From an uncultured Muribaculaceae bacterium (GTDB lineage Bacteria; Bacteroidota; Bacteroidia; Bacteroidales; Muribaculaceae): a stretch of DNA of 64,000 nt. The position numbers and the translations under genes are program-made. This document shows, piece after piece, positions 20,966 through 33,227 of the stretch. The notes below the pieces were generated by a model. That model was not told where the DNA came from. It made no database searches and was given only the letters and a program-made list of their open reading frames with translations. Position 1 is the stretch's first letter, and each line of letters opens with the position of its first letter. The stretch is from assembly GCA_905233915.1 (NCBI GenBank), contig CAJOFM010000015.1, positions 1 to 64,000 on the forward strand. Reading direction: 5' to 3'.

Positions 20966-23900
20966 TTAGTGAATGAGTTTGGTCGTGGTACGAGTGCCGT
21001 CAGTGTAGGTGGTGACGACGAGGGTCACGCCGCTCTCGGGTCGGTCAACACGCTGACCAGCCACGTTGTAGTAATCCACTCGGGCGATGGCCTTGCCTGT
21101 GGTCAACTCATTCACTGCAGTTTGGGTGCTTACGCCAATGTTGAAAGCGTCGAGCAGCACGGGCTGGCAAGTCGTGGTCACCATTTCGATGCCGTCAACG
21201 GTGATGTCGCCAGCAATGGGAGCGAAAGCAATTACGTCGAATGACAGCAAAGCGCCGCTGTTGCCCGCGATGGCTTCGATGGTGGGAGAGTAGCACAGGA
21301 TACGTGTCTTGCCATTACCAATCGATTCCATATCAAAGGCGTGGTTGCCAGTGCGGCTGGTCAACTCAAAGTTATTGACTGTCAAGCCGTCGGGCAGGTT
21401 CAGGTCGAGCTGGAAGGCGGCATAGTCCATCTCATTTTCGAGTGCGATGCTCACCTTGCGGGTTTCGCCAGGCTGGAGGGAGATGGACTCACCACTCATG
21501 CGGTCGTAGTTCGTCGCGATGGCGGGCGCCTGTCGTGGTGCGTTCATCATCGTGGGATATAGAATTAGGCGGGCGATGAGCATGATGTCGGTCACGGTCA
21601 CCTCGCCGTCACCGTTCATGTCTGCTGCGTCAAAGATGAATGGACTAGGGTTGCGCTGCAGCACATACTGCGCTGCCACCACGATGTCGGTCACGTTGAC
21701 GTTATGGCTGTCATTCACGTCACCCGGGATAAAGGTGTTAACCGTGAGCACAGCACCCGCATCTGGAATACGGATCTCGTTATAATTCATATTCGTCAAG
21801 CGCGAGTTGCGCAGATAGATGGCATAATCGCCAGCGGCGTCATCGGGCGCATTGACCGTAATATAGAACAGGTTGCCTTCATTGCCGCTGATGATTTGTT
21901 CTGACGCATTGTAGCAGAGGACACGCACGCCACCATCATTCAAGTACTCCGCCATAATGATGTGGTCATCAGTAAGGCGGCTCGACGGCATGATAATAGG
22001 CTCGTCGTCCTCGTCGGTTACCAGCGAGAAACCCTCAGGCAGATAAAGATCTGTCTGGAACGCCATGATGTTCTCGGTGTTGTTCAACTGAATTGGTATG
22101 GTGATGCTCTCCCCATGCAGCACCTCGCAATCAGGCATCGAGAAGCAGTTATCAGTGCTCAGGCTCTTCACCGTCACTTGGCAAGACGCCGACAGGTTAC
22201 TGCCGTCGGTCGTCATGGCCGTAATCGTCGAACTGCCCACACTCACACCTGTCACCAAACCATTTTCATCAACAGTGGCCACCATGGGATTACTCGATGC
22301 CCAAACCACCGTCTTGTTATAGGTGTAATCCGGGAACACCATAGCCGTCAGTTGCATTGTTTCGCCCTCAATCACTACCGCAGCGGTTTTATCTAGTTCA
22401 ATCGATTCGGCAATCTCATTACCTATCTCTACGATCTTCTCGAAATACTGGCTCCATTTCGGTTCCGCCTGATATGCTGCCAATGTGCCATAGGGAACAT
22501 GCAAGGTGCGACCTGTGTAATCCTGCGATGACAAATTGAAGACCATTGACCCAATATACATATCTGAAATATCAGTGATGTAGGAATACACATCAGTCAG
22601 CCCGCTGCAATTAGCGAAGGAGCAGTAGCGGAGGGCCGTGACGGAAGCGGGGATGGTAACGCTGTTCAACCCGCTGCAACCATTGAACGCGCTATTGTCG
22701 ATGGAAGTGACCGAGTTGGGGATATCAACGCTGGTCAGGCCGGTGCAGCCACCGAACGCCCATGTGCCGATAGTGGTGACCGAGTTGGGGATGGTAACGC
22801 TGATTAATCCCGTGCAGTGATTGAACGCATATTCGCCGATGGTGGTGACAGAATTGGGAATTACCGTGGTTTTGCAACCGACCAGCAACGTGTTGCTTGC
22901 TGTCTCGATGATGGCATTGCAATTGTCACGGGAATCATATACGGGATTCCCACTTGCTACAATGATGCTGGTCAATCCGCTGCAGTAATCAAGCACACCG
23001 CTACCGATGGTGGTAACAGAATTGGGGATGGTGATGCTGGTCAGTCCAGTGCAGCGGGAGAACGCACTTTGGCCGATGGTGGTTACTGAGTTGGGTATGG
23101 TGATACTGGTCAGGTCGCCACAGTAACCAAACGCAGCCGTACCGATGGTGGTGACCGAGTTGGGGATGGTGATATTGGTCAGGTTCGTGCAGTAATTAAA
23201 CGCATTGCCATCGATGGCAGTCAGCCCAGTAAAATACTGCAGTTCATCAAATGAGGTGATATTTGTGTTGGATTTAAAGACGGTGCTGAGACTCGTGACA
23301 GCGGCGGCTTCACTCATGGTTAACTCTCCATCACCGTTAGTGTCCCAATGCCACACACAAAGCGACTTAACATTGGCATCAGCAAAGTCAATAATGACAT
23401 CCTCCATTTCAACTATAGTACCAAAATACTGGCTCCATTTCGTATCCGCTTGATAGGCATCCAAAGTGCTATAGGGCACATAAAGTGTACGGTTAGCATA
23501 ATTTCCTTGGTAATAGTAGAATGAGAAGACAGATGACCCCATTGTCACTTTTGACAAGTTGGTAATACGGGAATACACATCAGCTAGGCCACTGCAGTCC
23601 AAAAAGGCGTAATCGCCGATGGTGGTGACCGAGTTGGGGATGTCGATGCTGGTCAGGCCGCTGCAGCCCGCGAACGCATAATCGCCGATAGACGTCACCG
23701 AGCTGGGAATAAAAGTGTTCATGCAACCTGCAATCAACGAGTTGGATGCCGTCTCGATGATAGCATTGCAATCCTCTCGTGAATCATAGGTCGGGTTACC
23801 ACTTTCCACATTAATGCTCATCAAGCTTTGACAATCACCAAACACGGTTTCGCCAATTGTAGTGACGGAGTTAGGAATACTAACGCTTGTCAGCTCCCAG

Positions 23901-24484
23901 CAACTACAGAACGCGCGGTCACCAATGGTGGTGACAGAGTTGCCGATGGTGACACTGGCCAAGCCGATGCAGCCCTCGAACGCACAAGAGTCGATGGTAG
24001 TGACTGAATTGGGGATGGTAATGCTGGTCAACCCCCTGCAGCCCTCGAACGCACAAGAGCCGATGGTGGTGACGGAGTTGGGGATGGTGACGCTTGTCAG
24101 GCTGCCACAGGCCATAAACGCAGATATTCCAATGGTGGTGACGGAGTTACCGATATTGACGCTTGTCAGCGCAGGGCAGTATTCTACAGCGTGGTCTTCG
24201 ATAGTCGTAACTGAATTGGGAATGTCAAGGCTGGTCAAGCCGCATCCCCAGAATGCGCCGTAGCCAATGGTGGTGACGGAGTATGTTGTGCCGTCGTAAA
24301 AGACGGTTTCGGGAATCATCACGTTTTCAGAATATTCGTAAGTACTTGGACTATAGGTAACGGAGGCTTCGTTGCCGCCCTTGATGTTGTAGTAGATACC
24401 GTCGACCACGAAGTCGTGGGCGAGGGCGGTGGCTGGGCGCAAAAGGGCCAGCAGCAGGAGCAAGAGTTTGATCAGGTTTTTCAT
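20966..24484 (-). CDS. Large BspA-like leucine-rich repeat surface protein with cohesin-like, dockerin and T9SS tail
   Basis: A 1172-residue multidomain protein. Order: signal peptide (1-22); LRR_5 block 1 (~45-303) built on IPNSVTTIG units; an EF-hand-like loop DTNGDGELTMSEAAA (~380); LRR_5 block 2 (~420-645); a Big_2 Ig-like domain (~690-770); cohesin-like 1 (~775-915); dockerin (~918-980, GDVNDSHNVNVTDI and DMNGDGEVTVTDI); cohesin-like 2 (~1000-1125); and a C-terminal sorting tail (~1128-1172) ending VVTTYTDGTRTTTKLIH. BspA-type repeats mediate adhesion or matrix binding. The start MKNLIKLLLL at 24484 is chosen because the 18 upstream codons lie in the leader. Highly repetitive LRR DNA could recombine. 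Confidence 0.88.
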   Translation of the reverse strand: MKNLIKLLLLLLALLRPATALAHDFVVDGIYYNIKGGNEASVTYSPSTYEYSENVMIPETVFYDGTTYSVTTIGYGAFWGCGLTSLDIPNSVTTIEDHAVEYCPALTSVNIGNSVTTIGISAFMACGSLTSVTIPNSVTTIGSCAFEGCRGLTSITIPNSVTTIDSCAFEGCIGLASVTIGNSVTTIGDRAFCSCWELTSVSIPNSVTTIGETVFGDCQSLMSINVESGNPTYDSREDCNAIIETASNSLIAGCMNTFIPSSVTSIGDYAFAGCSGLTSIDIPNSVTTIGDYAFLDCSGLADVYSRITNLSKVTMGSSVFSFYYYQGNYANRTLYVPYSTLDAYQADTKWSQYFGTIVEMEDVIIDFADANVKSLCVWHWDTNGDGELTMSEAAAVTSLSTVFKSNTNITSFDELQYFTGLTAIDGNAFNYCTNLTNITIPNSVTTIGTAAFGYCGDLTSITIPNSVTTIGQSAFSRCTGLTSITIPNSVTTIGSGVLDYCSGLTSIIVASGNPVYDSRDNCNAIIETASNTLLVGCKTTVIPNSVTTIGEYAFNHCTGLISVTIPNSVTTIGTWAFGGCTGLTSVDIPNSVTSIDNSAFNGCSGLNSVTIPASVTALRYCSFANCSGLTDVYSYITDISDMYIGSMVFNLSSQDYTGRTLHVPYGTLAAYQAEPKWSQYFEKIVEIGNEIAESIELDKTAAVVIEGETMQLTAMVFPDYTYNKTVVWASSNPMVATVDENGLVTGVSVGSSTITAMTTDGSNLSASCQVTVKSLSTDNCFSMPDCEVLHGESITIPIQLNNTENIMAFQTDLYLPEGFSLVTDEDDEPIIMPSSRLTDDHIIMAEYLNDGGVRVLCYNASEQIISGNEGNLFYITVNAPDDAAGDYAIYLRNSRLTNMNYNEIRIPDAGAVLTVNTFIPGDVNDSHNVNVTDIVVAAQYVLQRNPSPFIFDAADMNGDGEVTVTDIMLIARLILYPTMMNAPRQAPAIATNYDRMSGESISLQPGETRKVSIALENEMDYAAFQLDLNLPDGLTVNNFELTSRTGNHAFDMESIGNGKTRILCYSPTIEAIAGNSGALLSFDVIAFAPIAGDITVDGIEMVTTTCQPVLLDAFNIGVSTQTAVNELTTGKAIARVDYYNVAGQRVDRPESGVTLVVTTYTDGTRTTTKLIH

Positions 24485-24535
24485 TGTTGTGATAGTTTTA
24501 TGTTTATTTGTTGTTATTCGGTATTTTGTTGCCTG

Positions 24536-24543
24536 CAAAGATA
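24536..24543 (-). promoter_or_regulatory. -7 box for the large BspA-like gene
   Basis: TATCTTTG on the minus strand, 52 bases before the ATG. The usual -33 TTTG is missing; a perfect dyad occupies that place (24545-24572). Confidence 0.55.
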
Positions 24544-25562: not shown

Positions 25563-25593
25563 TTTGCCGTGTCGGGAAAAAAGACTACTTTTG
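25563..25593 (+). promoter_or_regulatory. Promoter of the TonB-receptor leader
   Basis: TTTG (25563-25566), 19 bases, TACTTTTG (25586-25593). The predicted start near 25597 gives an untranslated leader of about 248 bases. Between 25427 and 25562 I see only AT-rich sequence. Confidence 0.75.
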
Positions 25594-25596
25594 CAC

Positions 25597-25772
25597 CGAA
25601 TTTATGACAAGAAGTTGAAGTGTTAATACATAGCTTTAGCATACCTTTCAGGATAACTTGTAGCGGTGAGGCAGCAAGCCAGTTTTATAACCCGTTGCAA
25701 GAGAGGGTATCTAGCGACAAACGCGCCGTATTAGTAGGGGAAGACCCCGCTAATATGGCGCGAAATCTTTTT
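25597..25772 (+). ncRNA. Structured leader RNA, candidate cis-regulator or small RNA
   Basis: Nested pairing is visible. ATACCTT (25641-25647) pairs with AGGGTAT (25704-25710), enclosing CTTGTAGCGG (25657-25666) paired with CCGTTGCAAG (25692-25701), which encloses GGC/GCC (25670-25680). This domain is followed by a long hairpin (25722-25762) and ATCTTTTT. An aptamer-like domain then a terminator is the layout of a transcription-attenuating riboswitch, or of a short RNA ending at ~25772. It does not match the conserved boxes of the cobalamin, TPP, SAM or other common riboswitches that I can recall. Function is unknown. Confidence 0.55.
25722..25772 (+). terminator. Terminator-like hairpin inside the TonB-receptor leader
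   Basis: An 18-bp stem with one bulge: CGCGCC pairs with GGCGCG, TATTAG with CTAATA, GGGG with CCCC, around the loop AAGA, followed by AAATCTTTTTA. It lies 82 bases before the receptor ATG, so read-through must be controlled or partial. Confidence 0.7.
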
Positions 25773-25844
25773 ATGAATGATTATCAATTCAATCACTATT
25801 CTAATAATTAATTATTTTTCATCATTTAAAAACAAGTTTTTCGT

Positions 25845-28800
25845 ATGTTGAGAACAGTTAAGTTAATGGCATTGGTGGCAATGTTCTTTGTGGCATTGTC
25901 GGCAAGTGCTCAGGTGACAACTTCGGCACTGTCGGGTGTTGTGACCGATGAAAATCATGAGGCGATGATTGGCGCCACGATTACTGCGTTGCATACGCCT
26001 TCGGGCACGAAGTACAACGCCGTGACCAACATGGATGGCCGTTACACCATCCAGGGTATGCGCCCCGGCGGTCCCTACACCGTTTCGGTAAGCTACGTCG
26101 GCTATGCTCCCCGTCAGATTGAAGGTGTGAATCTGCAACTGGCCGAGACCTTCAATTTGGATGTTGACATGAGTGTTGACGCCAACTCGCTGGGCGAGGT
26201 GATCGTTACCGCCATGGGCAGCAAGTTCCAGACCGAGAAGACCGGAGCTGCCACCAACATCACCACGGCTCAGATTGGCAATCTGCCCACCGTTACCCGC
26301 AGCCTGACGGACATTACCCGTCTGTCGCCCTACGGTGGTAACGGCATGAGCTTTGCCGGTACCGATGGCCGTACTGCCAACTTCACCGTTGACGGTGCCA
26401 ACTTCAACAACAACTTCGGTTTGAGTGACAACCTCCCCGGTGGTGGTAACCCCATCAGCATCGAGGCCATTCAGGAGTTGCAGGTGGTGATTTCGCCCTA
26501 CGACGTTCGTCAGACTAACTTCATCGGTGGTGGTGTGAACGCTATCACCAAGAGCGGTACCAACACCTTCCGCGGTAGCGCCTACATCTTCCACCGCAAC
26601 GAGAACATGCGTGGTGATGCAGTAGAGCGCACCCAGATTGGTCAGGCTCGCGAGAAGTTCAAAGTGACTACCTATGGTGCCGCCATTGGCGGCCCGATCA
26701 TCAAGGACAAGCTGTTCTTCTTTGTGAACGGTGAGATGACCAAGCAGCCGACCGTTGTGAACATGTGGCGTGCATCGGAGAACGGTGTCGCTGTTCCCGA
26801 CCAGTACATCTCACGCACCTCGCTCGCCGATCTGGCCCGCGTGAGTGACTTTGTAAGGAACAAATACGGTTATGAGACCGGTTCCTACACCAACTTCCCC
26901 GCCGACGAGAACAACTACAAGCTGCTGGCCCGCCTGGACTGGAACATTACGCAGAACCATCACCTGGCCCTGCGCTACAACTACACCAAGAACCGCTACT
27001 GGAGCAATCCCAACGCCTCGTCGATGGACGGCGGCACGCGCATGGCCAACGGCCGTGTATCGCAGAAGTCCTTCTCGTTTGCCAACTCGATGTATGGCAT
27101 GGACAACCTGGTACACTCATTCTCGTTTGACCTGAACAGCCGCCTGACCGACAACCTGTCGAACCAGTTCCTGGCTACCCTCTCCAAGCTGGATGACGTG
27201 CGCACGACCAACTCCAGTGAGTTCCCCTTCATCGACATCACGATGCTCGACGCCGAGGGTAACCGCGACAACTACATGGCCCTGGGCTATGAGCTGTTCA
27301 CCTGGAACAACGCCGTTCACAACACCATCTGGAACCTGCGTGACGATGTGACCTGGTACTATGGTAACCACAAGATCATGGGAGGTCTGAGCTTTGAGCA
27401 TCAGATGGCCGACAACCAGTACATGCGCAACGGTACCGGTTACTACCGCTATAACAGCGTTGACGACTTTATCAACGGAGCTGCCCCCGAGGTTGTTTGC
27501 TTGACCTACGGTTACGGTAGCGAGACCAAGCCTGCTGCCCGCGTGCAGTTCAACAAGGCCGGCATCTATGCCCAGGACGAGTGGAACATCACCCGCAACT
27601 TCAAGCTGACCTATGGTCTGCGTTTCGACGGTCTGTTCTTCAATAATGGTGACCTGATCACCAACAACGCTATTCTGGCGCTGAACTATTATGACAATGA
27701 TGGCAATGTTCGCCACATCGACACCGGCAAGTGGCCGAACAGCAACCTGATCATCCAGCCTCGTGTAGGTTTCAGCTGGGACGTATTTGGCAACAAGGTG
27801 CTCAAGCTGCGCGGCGGTTCGGGTCTGTTCTCAGGCCGTCTGCCCCTGGTATTCTTCACCAACATGCCCACCAACGGCGGTCTGGTTCAGTATCAGGCTC
27901 AGCTCAACGGCAACACCAAGATTGGAGGTCTTGACAGTGATGGTAACTATGTTGCCAACAAGGGCTTTGAGAATTACACCGGAGCCTATACTACCGACTC
28001 CAAGGGCAACCGTTACATTGACATGAGCCAGTTTGCCGGCGGTCTGGTTACCGAGAATGGCCAGGCATCGGTTAATGCACTGCGCAACAAGCTCATCTCC
28101 ATGGGTTATCCCGAGAACGTGACATCAGACATGGGTACTGTCCCCTCGGCCGTCAATGGCGTGGATCCCAAGTTCAAGATGCCGATGGTGTGGAAGACCT
28201 CGTTGGCCGTTGACTACTCGCTGCCCGTTTCGTTCCCCTTCAGCGTGACTGTCGAGGGTATCTTCAACAAGAACATCAATGCCGCCAGCATCAGCGACTG
28301 GGCTATCCCCAGTGTAGCCGGTTTTGCCCGCTTCAACGGTGCTGACAACCGTCCCATGTATCCTGCCGGTTTCCGCACGGGTACCAAGGCCTTCATGCTG
28401 GAGAACACCAGCCGTGGTTATGGTTGGATTGCCAACATTACCTTGAATGCTGATCCCACCGACTGGTTGAGCCTGATGGCTGCTTACACCCACACCGTAC
28501 AGAAGGAAGTGACCGGTATGCCCGGTAGCGCTGCCGAGCCCACCATCGAGGGTCCCAACAACATCAAGCTGCACAACTCGCAGTATGTAACTCCTGACCG
28601 TTTCGTCCTCTCGGCAACCGGTCACGACCGCAGCGGTAACCACTATGGCCTGATCTATGAGGCTTGGCGCGGTGGTTACAACTACTCTTACATGATGGCC
28701 AACGACATGAACGGCGACGGTTACAACTACGATGCACTGTACATCCCCACTGACGAGCAGGTTGCCAAGGGCGACTTCCGCTTCGTGAGCGAGGGTGACA

Positions 28801-29207
28801 AGACCCGTTTCATGGACTATGTACACGCCAATAACTACTTGAAGAATCATCAGGGCGAATATGCCGAGGCTTACAGCCTGTACAATCCTTGGGTACATCG
28901 CATCGACCTGAGCTACAAGCATGACTTCTCGTTCAACGTTTGTGGTGCTAAGCACACCCTGCAGTTGCTCCTCGACGTGAAGAACGTGATGAACCTGTTC
29001 AACTCGAGCTGGGGCGTTAGCAAGTATCTCAACCCCGAGATTGGTAGTGATCCCCGCATCCTGAAGTATGAGGGCATTGATGCCTATGGTTATCCCACCT
29101 TCTCGACTCCCAAGTCGATTGACGGTAACACCAAGACCTTTGTTCCCAACAAGGCCATCGGTCAGTGCTGGAACGCATCTATCGGTATTAAGTACATCTT
29201 TAACTAA
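25845..29207 (+). CDS. TonB-dependent outer-membrane receptor (Oar-like)
   Basis: A 1120-residue outer-membrane protein: signal peptide (1-22), carboxypeptidase-regulatory-like domain (~27-112; LSGVVTDENHEAMIGATI, NMDGRYTIQGM), plug (~118-235; GEVIVTAMGSKFQTEKTG, TVDGANFNNNFGLS, SGTNTFRGSAY) and a 22-strand barrel to the C-terminus (KYIFN). It is closer to Oar-type receptors than to SusC: the SusC TonB-box spacing and a SusD partner are missing. It probably imports a large or scarce ligand using TonB energy. It is followed after 20 bases by a BACON/OB-fold lipoprotein, likely its partner, and preceded by a structured leader. Confidence 0.88.
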   Translation: MLRTVKLMALVAMFFVALSASAQVTTSALSGVVTDENHEAMIGATITALHTPSGTKYNAVTNMDGRYTIQGMRPGGPYTVSVSYVGYAPRQIEGVNLQLAETFNLDVDMSVDANSLGEVIVTAMGSKFQTEKTGAATNITTAQIGNLPTVTRSLTDITRLSPYGGNGMSFAGTDGRTANFTVDGANFNNNFGLSDNLPGGGNPISIEAIQELQVVISPYDVRQTNFIGGGVNAITKSGTNTFRGSAYIFHRNENMRGDAVERTQIGQAREKFKVTTYGAAIGGPIIKDKLFFFVNGEMTKQPTVVNMWRASENGVAVPDQYISRTSLADLARVSDFVRNKYGYETGSYTNFPADENNYKLLARLDWNITQNHHLALRYNYTKNRYWSNPNASSMDGGTRMANGRVSQKSFSFANSMYGMDNLVHSFSFDLNSRLTDNLSNQFLATLSKLDDVRTTNSSEFPFIDITMLDAEGNRDNYMALGYELFTWNNAVHNTIWNLRDDVTWYYGNHKIMGGLSFEHQMADNQYMRNGTGYYRYNSVDDFINGAAPEVVCLTYGYGSETKPAARVQFNKAGIYAQDEWNITRNFKLTYGLRFDGLFFNNGDLITNNAILALNYYDNDGNVRHIDTGKWPNSNLIIQPRVGFSWDVFGNKVLKLRGGSGLFSGRLPLVFFTNMPTNGGLVQYQAQLNGNTKIGGLDSDGNYVANKGFENYTGAYTTDSKGNRYIDMSQFAGGLVTENGQASVNALRNKLISMGYPENVTSDMGTVPSAVNGVDPKFKMPMVWKTSLAVDYSLPVSFPFSVTVEGIFNKNINAASISDWAIPSVAGFARFNGADNRPMYPAGFRTGTKAFMLENTSRGYGWIANITLNADPTDWLSLMAAYTHTVQKEVTGMPGSAAEPTIEGPNNIKLHNSQYVTPDRFVLSATGHDRSGNHYGLIYEAWRGGYNYSYMMANDMNGDGYNYDALYIPTDEQVAKGDFRFVSEGDKTRFMDYVHANNYLKNHQGEYAEAYSLYNPWVHRIDLSYKHDFSFNVCGAKHTLQLLLDVKNVMNLFNSSWGVSKYLNPEIGSDPRILKYEGIDAYGYPTFSTPKSIDGNTKTFVPNKAIGQCWNASIGIKYIFN

Positions 29208-29227: not shown

Positions 29228-30742
29228 ATGAAACTCAGATATTTTATTTCGTTTTTTGCACTGATTGCCCTGTTGTCGAGCTGCTCTGATGAAGAGACAA
29301 TGACCTTGCTCGATGAGCTCAAGGTGTCGTCATCCTATGTGGGCATCGATGTCAATGGCGGTTCCAACAATATCATTCTGAACGCCAACGGCGCCTGGAC
29401 TTTTGACCAGGATGAGATTCCCGAGTGGCTTACCGTAAGCCCCATGTCGGGTGGCGCAGGTGAGTATGGTATAACCTTCACCGCTCCCGCCGCTCCTGAC
29501 GGCCGCACCGCTGTCCTGCACGTTGAGTGCGACGGCAAGCAGCAGACCATCAACGTGATCCAAGGTCTCGCAGTAGTCAGTGAGGCTACCTGTGCCGAGG
29601 TTAATGCTGGTCCCGAAAGCAAGACCTATCGCGTCACCGGTACCGTGGACAGGATCATCAATACCACCTACGGCAACTGGTACCTGCGTGACGAGACCGG
29701 TGAGGTTTACATCTATGGTACGCTGGACGCCAAGGGTCAGACCAAGAACTTCCTGAGCCTGGGCCTTGAGGTGGGTGACATTGTTACCGTCGAGGGTCCC
29801 AAGACCGTGTATAACGGTACTGTAGAGTTGGTTGACGTGACTGTTGTCAAGATTCAGAAGTCGCTGGTTAAGGTCGAGGGTTATGATCCCGAGGATGCCA
29901 CTATCCCCGTTGAGGGTGGTAACGTGACCGTTAACCTGAGCTGCAAGACCAACAACGGCATCTCGGTTGAGATTCCCGACGAGGCCAAGGATTGGCTGGG
30001 TATTGTGTCGGTTTCTGGTGGCGCTGAGCCCACAGTAACCTTCCATGCCAATGCTAACCCTGGTGGCGACCGCAGCGCAAATGTAGTCTTCAAGACCACC
30101 GACGACAAGGGTCAGGAGTACACCGCCAGCGCAACCATCAACCAAAAGGGCGCTATCGTTGCCGCTACCGTAGCCGAGTTCCTTGAGGCTCCCGTGGGTG
30201 ACACCCAGTATCGCCTGAATGGTATCGTGGTAGGTCTGTATCGCGAGAATCAGGGCTTCTACCTGCGTGACTACACTGGTGAGACTTTGATTTACAGGCC
30301 CGAGGGCTTCACCGGCACCGAGGTTAAGGTGGGTGACGTTGTCACCGTTGTCGGCAAGCGCGGCGCTTACAAGGATTCTCCCCAAATGGTATCGGGTATG
30401 ATCGAGGAAATCAATTACACGGCAAAGGCCATCAGCATCGCTGAGTTCCGCAACCTGCCTGATGACAAGGAGGCTTACTACCTCATCTCGGGTGAGATTG
30501 TAACCGCTACCGAGGAAGGCTCAAAGAACGATATTGAGCAGTATGGTAACTTCAACCTGAAGGATGAGACCGGTGAGGTTTACATCTACGGTGTCTATAC
30601 CGGTTGGGGTGGCCAGAAGGGCCACTTTGGTGAGCTTGGTCTCACCTGGGGTGACCAGATCACCATCATCGCTTACAAGACCACTTACAAGGGCCTTGTT
30701 GAGGGTGTAGGTTACTACATCTCGCACGAGAAAGCTGAGTGA
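29228..30742 (+). CDS. BACON and OB-fold lipoprotein, partner of the TonB receptor
   Basis: A 504-residue lipoprotein (LSSC, Cys19) with acidic residues after the Cys, suggesting surface exposure. Order: BACON-type Ig-like domain (~30-118; GAWTFDQDEIPEWLTVSP), OB-fold (~130-215; YGNWYLRDETGEVYIYG, LGLEVGDIVTVEGPK), second BACON-like domain (~218-320), and two further OB-fold units (~325-405 and ~415-504; the last repeats FNLKDETGEVYIYG). These are DUF5689-like OB-folds found on Bacteroidota surface proteins, usually linked to ligand binding or secreted nucleases. No catalytic residues are evident. The gene overlaps in context with the receptor upstream, so capture of its ligand is a fair inference. 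Confidence 0.75.
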   Translation: MKLRYFISFFALIALLSSCSDEETMTLLDELKVSSSYVGIDVNGGSNNIILNANGAWTFDQDEIPEWLTVSPMSGGAGEYGITFTAPAAPDGRTAVLHVECDGKQQTINVIQGLAVVSEATCAEVNAGPESKTYRVTGTVDRIINTTYGNWYLRDETGEVYIYGTLDAKGQTKNFLSLGLEVGDIVTVEGPKTVYNGTVELVDVTVVKIQKSLVKVEGYDPEDATIPVEGGNVTVNLSCKTNNGISVEIPDEAKDWLGIVSVSGGAEPTVTFHANANPGGDRSANVVFKTTDDKGQEYTASATINQKGAIVAATVAEFLEAPVGDTQYRLNGIVVGLYRENQGFYLRDYTGETLIYRPEGFTGTEVKVGDVVTVVGKRGAYKDSPQMVSGMIEEINYTAKAISIAEFRNLPDDKEAYYLISGEIVTATEEGSKNDIEQYGNFNLKDETGEVYIYGVYTGWGGQKGHFGELGLTWGDQITIIAYKTTYKGLVEGVGYYISHEKAE

Positions 30743-30868: not shown

Positions 30869-32071
30869 ATGGTTAGACGTCAGTTTTTTATTCTGCTTCT
30901 CTTGTCGCTGGTGGGATTGTGTTCCCAAGCTGCAGGACGTGACAATTACACGGTAATCATTTCGCTCGATGGACTGCGTTGGGATTATCTTGATACCTAT
31001 GACGTGCCGTTCATGAATCAGCTGGCACGTGAGGGCGTCAAGGCTGTGATGCAGCCGTCGTTCCCTAGCAAGACGTTCCCTAACCATTATACTCTTGCGA
31101 CGGGTCTCACGCCCGACCATCATGGAATTATCGCTAACATATTTTGGGATCGCGAGAAGGGTGTGGAGTTCTCGTTGAAGAATAATGTAACCCGTGCCGA
31201 CGGCAAGTATTATGGCGGCGACCCCGTGTGGCTCACGGCCAAGCATCAAGGGGTGAAAACGGCTACCGTCTTCTGGGTGGGCAGTGATGTCGCAGTCAAT
31301 GGCGAGCATCCTACCTATTGGCGTGATTATCAGACCGAGCAGTTGGACTTTGAGGGTCGTGTGGATGAGGTGATTCGCTTGCTGAGTATGCCTGAGCAGG
31401 ATCGTCCCCACTTGGTGATGGCCTATTTTGAGGAACCTGACCGCAGTGGCCACAATTATGGCCCCATGAACCGCCTCACGCGTCGCGCCCTGGAGGAAGT
31501 TGACCGCCTGCTGAGCATGATGTGGACCCGCATTCAAATGTTGCCCATCGCCGACAAGGTGAACCTTATTATCACTGGTGACCACGGCATGACTAGCGTG
31601 GATCCCAAGCGCTTTGTCGATATTGATGACGTCTTGCCCCAGCGTTGGTATGAGCGTTTCTGCAACGATTATCCCACGCTTATCTATGCCAGTGCGCCGC
31701 AGTACATCGATTCTATCTGCAACGCCTTGCAGGGCGTTGACCACATCCGTGCATGGAAAAAGGCTGACATTCCTGCCTATCTTGGATACGGCACCAATAA
31801 AAACATGGGTGATGTGGTAGTGCTGCCTGATGTAGGTTGGCTCTTTGCCGATAAACCCTCACAAAAACAACGGGGTAGCCACGGCTTTGACCACACGGCC
31901 GCCGACATGCAGGTGGGCTTCCGTGCCATCGGGCCTGATTTCAAGGTAGGCTATACCAAGGTGGACCGTTTCCGCAACGTGTGTGTTTATCCGCTGCTGT
32001 GTTACCTCTTGGGCGTGACGCCGTCGCCTAACGACGGTAACCTCGATGAGGTGGCCGACATGCTGCGATAA
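30869..32071 (+). CDS. Ectonucleotide pyrophosphatase/phosphodiesterase (NPP family)
   Basis: A 400-residue exported enzyme of the alkaline phosphatase superfamily with a signal peptide (cleavage near SQAAG, residue ~23). Metal and catalytic sites are visible: SLDGLRWDY (metal Asp), PSFPSKTFPNHYTLATGL (Thr nucleophile), EEPDRSGHNYGP (Asp and His ligands), TGDHGM (Asp and His), and SHGFDH (last His). NPP enzymes split phosphodiester or pyrophosphate bonds in nucleotides or lipids. It probably works in the periplasm on external nucleotides. The downstream ATP-grasp gene starts 26 bases later and may be co-transcribed. Confidence 0.88.
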   Translation: MVRRQFFILLLLSLVGLCSQAAGRDNYTVIISLDGLRWDYLDTYDVPFMNQLAREGVKAVMQPSFPSKTFPNHYTLATGLTPDHHGIIANIFWDREKGVEFSLKNNVTRADGKYYGGDPVWLTAKHQGVKTATVFWVGSDVAVNGEHPTYWRDYQTEQLDFEGRVDEVIRLLSMPEQDRPHLVMAYFEEPDRSGHNYGPMNRLTRRALEEVDRLLSMMWTRIQMLPIADKVNLIITGDHGMTSVDPKRFVDIDDVLPQRWYERFCNDYPTLIYASAPQYIDSICNALQGVDHIRAWKKADIPAYLGYGTNKNMGDVVVLPDVGWLFADKPSQKQRGSHGFDHTAADMQVGFRAIGPDFKVGYTKVDRFRNVCVYPLLCYLLGVTPSPNDGNLDEVADMLR

Positions 32072-33088: not shown

Positions 33089-33194
33089 AAAAAAAGGGCA
33101 AGTGAGCTACAGCGCGCCGCTACAACCTCGTTACCCTTGCTTCGGTCAAGACCTGGGGGATTGGGAGGGAGCTGGCCGTGTAGGACTTACCCGG
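33089..33194 (-). ncRNA. ffs: Signal recognition particle RNA, small bacterial type (4.5S)
   Basis: Read on the minus strand, the RNA begins GGGTAAGT and ends ACTTGCCC, which pair, then TTTTTTTT. The apical core reads CCAGGTCTTGACCGAAGCAA, which is the SRP domain IV with its Ffh-binding GAAGCA loop. A second helix uses CCTACA with TGTAG. Together with Ffh it directs membrane proteins to the translocon. Length is about 97 bases before the U-tail. A promoter lies directly upstream. The rest of the gap to 33457 holds only AT-rich sequence and the next promoter. Confidence 0.9.
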
Positions 33195-33197
33195 CTG

Positions 33198-33227
33198 CAA
33201 AGGTACTGCTTTTTCCTAAACTACCAA
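33198..33227 (-). promoter_or_regulatory. Promoter of ffs
   Basis: On the minus strand GTTG (TTG at 33227-33225), 19 bases, TACCTTTG (33205-33198), ending 4-6 bases before the 5' end of the RNA. Confidence 0.75.

Follow-up and report, generated by a model that had tools for sequence, protein, structure and literature searches.

The window, which is the whole 64,000-nucleotide stretch analysed from an uncultured Muribaculaceae bacterium, contains a gene for an Oar-type TonB-dependent outer-membrane protein at 25845–29207 of the forward strand, recognised by the Pfam models OMP_b-brl_4 (5.3e-53) and CarboxypepD_reg (1.5e-20). The gene name oar comes from an earlier note on the same DNA; no model so named matched. 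Two more forward-strand genes probably belong to the same operon. The second gene, at 29228–30742, encodes a BACON / OB-fold-like protein (Pfam BACON, 2.1e-19), and the gene at 30869–32071 encodes a type I phosphodiesterase / nucleotide pyrophosphatase-like protein (Pfam PF01663, 6.6e-88). Among 14 genomes examined, all 14 have a BACON/OB-fold relative behind oar, and 11 have a phosphodiesterase in the following 6.3–6.6 kb. Sorted by the leader types described below, the phosphodiesterase accompanies the first leader peptide in 10 of 10 genomes, another type in 1 of 1, and the second peptide in 0 of 3. That the neighbouring genes suggest nucleotide or phosphate uptake is a guess. Elsewhere on the reverse strand, the window contains a Bacteroidales small SRP RNA at 33092–33199 (Rfam RF04183, 100.8 bits) and, at 20966–24538, a BspA-type leucine-rich-repeat protein with Big_2 and type I dockerin domains (Pfam). 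A type I dockerin together with a BspA-type protein is unusual company for a Bacteroidales genome.

The leader of oar, the presumed controlled gene, begins behind a forward-strand promoter of the sigma-ABfr type, composed of TTTG at 25563–25566, a spacing of 19 nt, and the -7 box TACTTTTG at 25586–25593. The earlier note had placed a full promoter at 25563–25593, where it is indeed located, and the assignment to sigma-ABfr follows from its match to the consensus TTTG / TAnnTTTG, as given in PMC7366714. From the promoter position, transcription is predicted to start at about 25597–25600. The TAnnTTTG box is present upstream of the ORF start in 39 of 39 homologous leaders, and TTTG or TTGT occurs at a -33-like spacing in just 25 of 39, a count in which the -7 box is misplaced in five rows. 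Between the hairpin described below and the oar ATG, the TAnnTTTG motif occurs in 0 of 39 leaders. As this motif is present only upstream of the ORF, oar apparently depends on read-through, unless it has a promoter of another kind.

The leader comprises an ORF that the earlier note overlooked. It extends on the forward strand from GTG 25620 to TAA 25809–25811, consists of 63 codons, and stays in frame across the hairpin; its profile is matched in 39 of the 101 genus genomes. The GTG lies 26 nt past the -7 box and about 20–23 nt past the predicted transcription start; the commonest 5′ UTR length in Bacteroides thetaiotaomicron is 23 nt, according to PMC7366714. The leaders of the genus (39 genomes, including that of the window) conserve the peptide core GIPFRITCSGEAASQFYNPLQER. 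The predicted ORF is probably translated.

Codons 1–36 of this ORF (25620–25727, forward strand) are under coding selection. In an alignment of 30 rows, their synonymous fraction is 0.340 versus 0.218 in column shuffles (5 of 2000 as high), their mean BLOSUM score is equalled by 2 of 2000 shuffles, and they contain zero stop codons, with 0 of 2000 shuffles having as few. The remaining two frames contain 60 and 94 stop codons over the 30 rows. For codons 7–36 the synonymous fraction rises to 0.404 (1 of 2000 shuffles as high; 30 rows). The first ten oar codons, used as a positive control, give 0.533 (60 of 2000 shuffles). The coding signal is absent from codons 37–50, which lie in the hairpin (0.101 versus 0.191 shuffled, 1890 of 2000 as high; 30 rows), and the same test in the same rows gives no coding signal in either flank (upstream 60 nt, downstream 66 nt). 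Fitch parsimony on the oar tree, with 37 of the 39 leaders (L013 and L031 were missed by the oar start pattern and left out), yields, over codons 7–29, a median of 2 changes at first, 1 at second, and 5 at third codon positions. Four amino-acid columns are invariant and 13 are nearly invariant in the 30 rows, three of which are trimmed at indels, and the exchanges are conservative, such as K/R and T/S. This amino-acid conservation exceeds the need of simple coupling, and the nascent or free peptide may therefore have a function. The window peptide and 30 family members have no significant Pfam match (best E 0.064 among the 30 members), and the leader peptide has no significant match in NCBIfam (best E 0.13) or PHROGs (best E 0.09).

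The ORF part contains two near-invariant rare AUA codons on the forward strand, codon 8 (25641–25643) and codon 12 (25653–25655), which are ATA in 36 and 37 of the 39 leaders, respectively. The two exceptions at codon 12 are both TTA, likewise a rare codon. In eight genes of the window, ATA represents 4.7% of 343 isoleucine codons. AUA accounts for 96 of 108 isoleucine codons in the 39 leaders (codons 1–35) and for 3 of 695 in the available oar sequence of 36 of these loci, and among arginine codons AGG accounts for 52 of 96 in the leaders compared with 12 of 751 in oar. A recount anchored on the alignment returned identical numbers for isoleucine codons, -7 boxes, and TTTT. Third-position A has a frequency of 0.24 in the leader, which is an even composition, and of 0.05 in oar. 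Because the third positions of the leader are even, part of the AUA excess is simply a lack of codon optimisation. The third positions of codons 8 and 12, with 1 and 0 changes against a median of 5, are not explained in this way. No run of codons for the same amino acid is present in the leader ORF, and the isoleucine codons of the window peptide stand singly (codons 3, 8, and 12).

The hairpin at 25722–25762 of the forward strand is terminator-like, with 18 pairs, one bulge, and the loop AAGA at 25741–25744. The earlier note had described this 18-bp hairpin, its loop, and its distance from the start codon correctly, with 82 bases separating 25762 from the oar ATG at 25845. The stretch 25716–25772 has a folding z of -6.84 (0 of 200 shuffles as good). 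Across the 39 leaders, 44 cells are altered on both sides of the stem compared with 13.0 ± 3.2 in shuffles (0 of 500), both-side changes affect 11 of the 18 pairs, and the covariation score in alignment A2 is unmatched by shuffles (0 of 500). The hairpin is under selection. It is followed by the U-rich tail ATCTTTTT at 25765–25772 (forward strand), a predicted site of premature termination, and TTTT occurs within 16 nt past the stem in 37 of 39 leaders. A scan of the hairpin for consensus terminators gives 0 sites and the T run begins 5 nt beyond the stem, so the hairpin appears not to be a canonical terminator. It would be a terminator of moderate strength.

The stems upstream of this hairpin have a different record. 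The earlier note had listed the nested pairings ATACCTT with AGGGTAT, 25657–25666 with 25692–25701, and GGC with GCC, and all of them are present in the MFE fold. The covariation in homologous leaders that it named as supporting evidence is strong in the hairpin but not found in the 10-bp and outer stems. The 10-bp stem (25657–25666/25692–25701, forward strand), a possible but unproven pause hairpin, is paired in 93.8% of cells, and its covariation score is reached by 63 of 500 shuffles. Such a lack of covariation would be expected of bases constrained by the genetic code. Some wobble positions in this stem, codon 13 among them, are unusually fixed, and the stem may thus still have a role. For the outer stem, pairing is seen in only 70.5% of cells, which is below the shuffled mean (462 of 500 shuffles at least as paired), and has no covariation in the 39 leaders. 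The upstream domain 25640–25712 folds only modestly better than shuffles (z -2.22, equalled by 3 of 200), as does 25597–25712 (z -1.87, 8 of 200). The conservation of 25620–25727 is that of coding sequence, so the folded domain of the earlier note is mainly a coding one. Selection thus acts on two pieces of the element, a coding stretch and, overlapping the last part of the ORF, an RNA hairpin.

The position of the stop codon relative to the hairpin varies. In the 39 leaders the ORF stops before the hairpin in 0, inside it in 4 (L004, L091, L094, and L095, which keep the hairpin), at most 12 nt past it in 5, and later in 30. It thereby extends beyond the hairpin end in 35 of 39 leaders. The 30 later ones include five in which the leader ORF stays open into oar. 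In these five (L003, L005, L006, L010, and L011) it is in frame with oar, so gene callers may extend the N-terminus of oar and hide its signal peptide. Folds of the window sequence with a ribosome masked at nine positions give the hairpin a mean pair probability of 0.99 at seven of the nine and of 0.00 with the P site at 25719 or 25731. No alternative antiterminator appears in these nine masked folds of the window sequence.

The element is present in 35 of 101 genus genomes in a DNA search and in 39 of 101 in a peptide profile search. The DNA query yielded 30 loci, one of them the window's own, and oar follows the element directly in every one. Homologues of oar at E ≤1e-100 are found in 90 of the 101 genomes. 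The family search detects the first leader peptide in 18 of 297 genomes, all from the genus of the window, and the order search in 1 of 393, namely the window's own. A tblastn search of plasmids and phages with the window's 51-residue peptide gives no match. Named records with the peptide are metagenome-assembled genomes labelled Prevotellaceae, Muribaculaceae, Porphyromonadaceae, or Bacteroidales. Some of them name rumen or abomasum in their titles, and the prefix RUG stands for rumen. No earlier report of the element itself was found in searches of the open-access literature.

A second leader peptide family, M-x-L-L-x-F-[FL]-I-[FL] (alignment A3), is present in 17 of the 101 genus genomes, none of which is among the 39. 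The two leader profiles have no detectable similarity (hhalign probability 0.2%). Every one of the 17 ORFs of the second family ends within a strong hairpin, and the frame in which the hairpin is read differs among them. Codon 8 is ATA in 16 of 16 covering rows, and ATA accounts for 31 of 42 isoleucine codons in codons 1–28. The coding test of this family covers 16 of the 17 rows (L115 was left out because its ORF start was not found) and is weaker, with a synonymous fraction of 0.228 compared with 0.164 (104 of 2000 shuffles), a BLOSUM result of 11 of 2000, and a stop codon result of 0 of 2000. In two genomes, G094 and G100, a diverged copy of the leader (L050 and L092) precedes a DUF5689 gene (Pfam matches of 1.1e-56 and 4.7e-61). 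These copies share the strand of the oar leader and precede it by about 1.7 kb (L050) and 4.3 kb (L092). They retain an I-P-x-x-(I/L)-T-C-x-G core together with a hairpin like that of the oar leader, and in these two copies one stop falls within the family profile.

Taken together, the element is read as a translation-coupled leader-peptide transcription attenuator in front of oar, with a probability of roughly two in three. This reading is based on the coding selection in the ORF, the covarying hairpin, the frame that is open into the hairpin, the restriction of the -7 motif to the upstream side, the masked folds, the preference for AUA, the recurrence of the layout with a different peptide in 17 genomes, and the diverged copies before DUF5689 genes. 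Speaking against it are the departure of the hairpin from a textbook terminator, the four leaders whose ORF stops inside it, the amino-acid conservation of the peptide, the stop in the diverged copies, the oar leaders without the module, and the share of the AUA excess that reflects absent codon optimisation. The proposed sequence of events would begin with transcription at about 25597. A ribosome would start at GTG 25620 and make the short conserved peptide, and RNA polymerase would next produce the hairpin 25722–25762 with its U-rich tail. Since the ORF runs through the hairpin, a closely following ribosome could enter it and block its formation, and the polymerase would continue into oar and the genes behind it. 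With a slow, stalled, or absent ribosome, the hairpin would form and transcription would end near 25772. A competing antiterminator fold would be unnecessary, as in the Escherichia coli pyrBI leader. The ribosome is probably throttled by rare codons, AUA (and AGG), among the first dozen. Selection on the ORF, selection on the hairpin, and the overlap of the two are shown by the comparisons; translation of the ORF, termination at the hairpin, the polarity of the control, and the signal sensed are inferred. A tentative extension is that the identity of the rare codon, AUA, and not the peptide is the sensor, with dissimilar peptides being swapped before the same receptor while AUA stays at fixed places and a hairpin at the end of the ORF; this is doubtful but conceivable. 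The AUA-reading tRNA-Ile is the lysidine-modified species. If the extension is true, the supply of this tRNA or the balance of ribosome and polymerase speed would gate the synthesis of the outer-membrane receptor and of the secreted DUF5689 and phosphodiesterase proteins.

The main rival to the attenuator is a role of the peptide itself, either as a nascent arrest peptide that halts the ribosome when a signal is sensed or as a trans-acting small protein co-transcribed with oar. The high amino-acid conservation and the conservative exchanges, which go beyond what coupling needs, speak for such a role. It is nevertheless unlikely, as the 30 of 39 leaders with a stop more than 12 nt past the hairpin would yield a terminated transcript without a stop codon, the stop codon is loosely placed, rare codons are favoured, 17 other genomes have a different peptide at the same place, and neither Pfam, NCBIfam, nor PHROGs contains a significant match.

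The earlier note had seen the layout of an attenuating riboswitch, in which a metabolite would bind the folded domain at 25641–25710 and control the terminator. Of this proposal, the attenuator layout is supported, in that a leader conserved in the genus precedes an Oar-type receptor and has both a promoter of its own and a terminator-like hairpin that covaries; the aptamer part is not supported. The domain does fold slightly better than shuffles (z -2.22), the 10-bp stem can pair in 93.8% of cells, and some wobble positions, such as codon 13, are fixed. On the other side, the outer stem is unconserved, the 10-bp stem lacks covariation, substitutions follow codon positions, and the leader has no Rfam match at the gathering threshold. 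The riboswitch is therefore rejected as highly improbable. The earlier note had itself recognised no known riboswitch class, in line with the Rfam 15 search of the leader, in which four matches at E ≤5 belong to unrelated families and score far under their gathering scores. Another alternative is a free small RNA, about 175 nt long and ending at its own terminator, in which case oar would be transcribed by read-through or would have a different type of promoter. The promoter and the terminator-like end are in its favour, and 5′-derived small RNAs are reported from B. thetaiotaomicron in PMC7366714. This alternative is also very improbable in view of the coding selection in the leader, the position of oar directly downstream in all 30 loci, and the count of 0 of 39 for the -7 motif in between. 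A free small RNA may arise as a by-product of termination.

Attenuators of the kind proposed are known; this one would be new in its target gene, in having a peptide that differs from clade to clade, and in keeping AUA codons at fixed places. The amino-acid attenuators of the trp, his, and leu type have a short ORF, a terminator, and a gene in this order, with conserved codons that possibly slow the ribosome. The oar leader shares this order and its conserved, potentially slowing codons. In contrast, it lacks a codon run for a single amino acid, has no antiterminator in the masked folds, and precedes a receptor gene instead of a biosynthetic one. In E. coli, the pyrL ORF extends into the terminator of pyrBI, and the coupling of a leader ORF to a terminator makes this leader similar to that of oar. 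Tight coupling of ribosome and polymerase across the pyrBI leader peptide prevents terminator formation, according to PMC5021804. The oar leader differs from that of pyrBI in phylum, gene, and peptide, as well as in the conservation of the peptide within the clade and in its AUA codons. The UTP-sensing pause site is a pyrBI feature and lies outside the likeness drawn here. In Streptococcus gallolyticus pil1, transcription is higher with longer leader peptides, as the ribosome then destabilises a premature stem-loop terminator (PMC3894217). The pil1 leader is similar in having a leader terminator that is melted by the ribosome before surface-protein genes, and different in being set by the number of GCAGA repeats (phase variation), whereas no such repeat is visible in the aligned oar leaders. 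For short ORFs in the long 5′ UTRs of B. thetaiotaomicron, the source says that their existence needs validation; the present evidence is comparative and concerns one operon.

Studies of how gut and rumen Bacteroidales regulate their TonB-dependent receptors usually look to transcription factors, ECF sigma factors, and antisense RNAs. A translation-sensing leader before a large receptor would add a layer of control. Since the peptide changes between clades and the rare codon and the hairpin are kept, the question of "peptide or codon?" becomes directly testable. The locus also carries a caution, in that conserved and stably folding leaders can be small coding genes and not riboswitches.

The module is dispensable for oar, because short leaders in which no module is seen exist among the oar relatives of the genus (L103, L104, L105, and L125, and the more distant L161, L162, and L164). 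In other genera, five of eight loci are readable (L151, L154, L156, L157, and L158, from four genera) and have -7 boxes 42–90 nt upstream, with no such module by eye. The other three (L152, L153, and L155) have no readable start and were left out. In the genome of the window, 18 of 20 Plug-domain loci are readable, L131 being at a contig edge and L138 having no start. Within 350 nt upstream, 16 of these 18 have no T-run hairpin between the listed box and the start, although five loci (L137, L144, L145, L146, and L148) have no -7 box found and are thus little informative. L135 has a hairpin before the start, with the -7 box within the hairpin itself, and L140 has a weak hairpin (-8.0 kcal/mol) before a doubtful start codon.

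Many of the genus oar loci read without the first peptide have a long leader with a different ORF. Among 12 leaders of other types (L096–L099, L102, L106, L109, L123, L124, L126, L127, and L129), some ORF reaches the best hairpin in 11 by rough hairpin calls that carry no weight in the argument, L124 being the single exception in which none does by the same calls. L100 and L159 are outside the leader-type counts, and L159 showed no oar start. L126 and L129, which L124 resembles in DNA, belong to one more type of oar leader. They share the string LRQRYKRGLCCGDYC, which is read through a hairpin whose U-rich tail is interrupted. In L160 and L163, two of the more distant oar relatives in the genus, a -7 box likewise precedes the gene by about 260 nt, and a hairpin followed by a T-rich tail can be made out by eye between the two.
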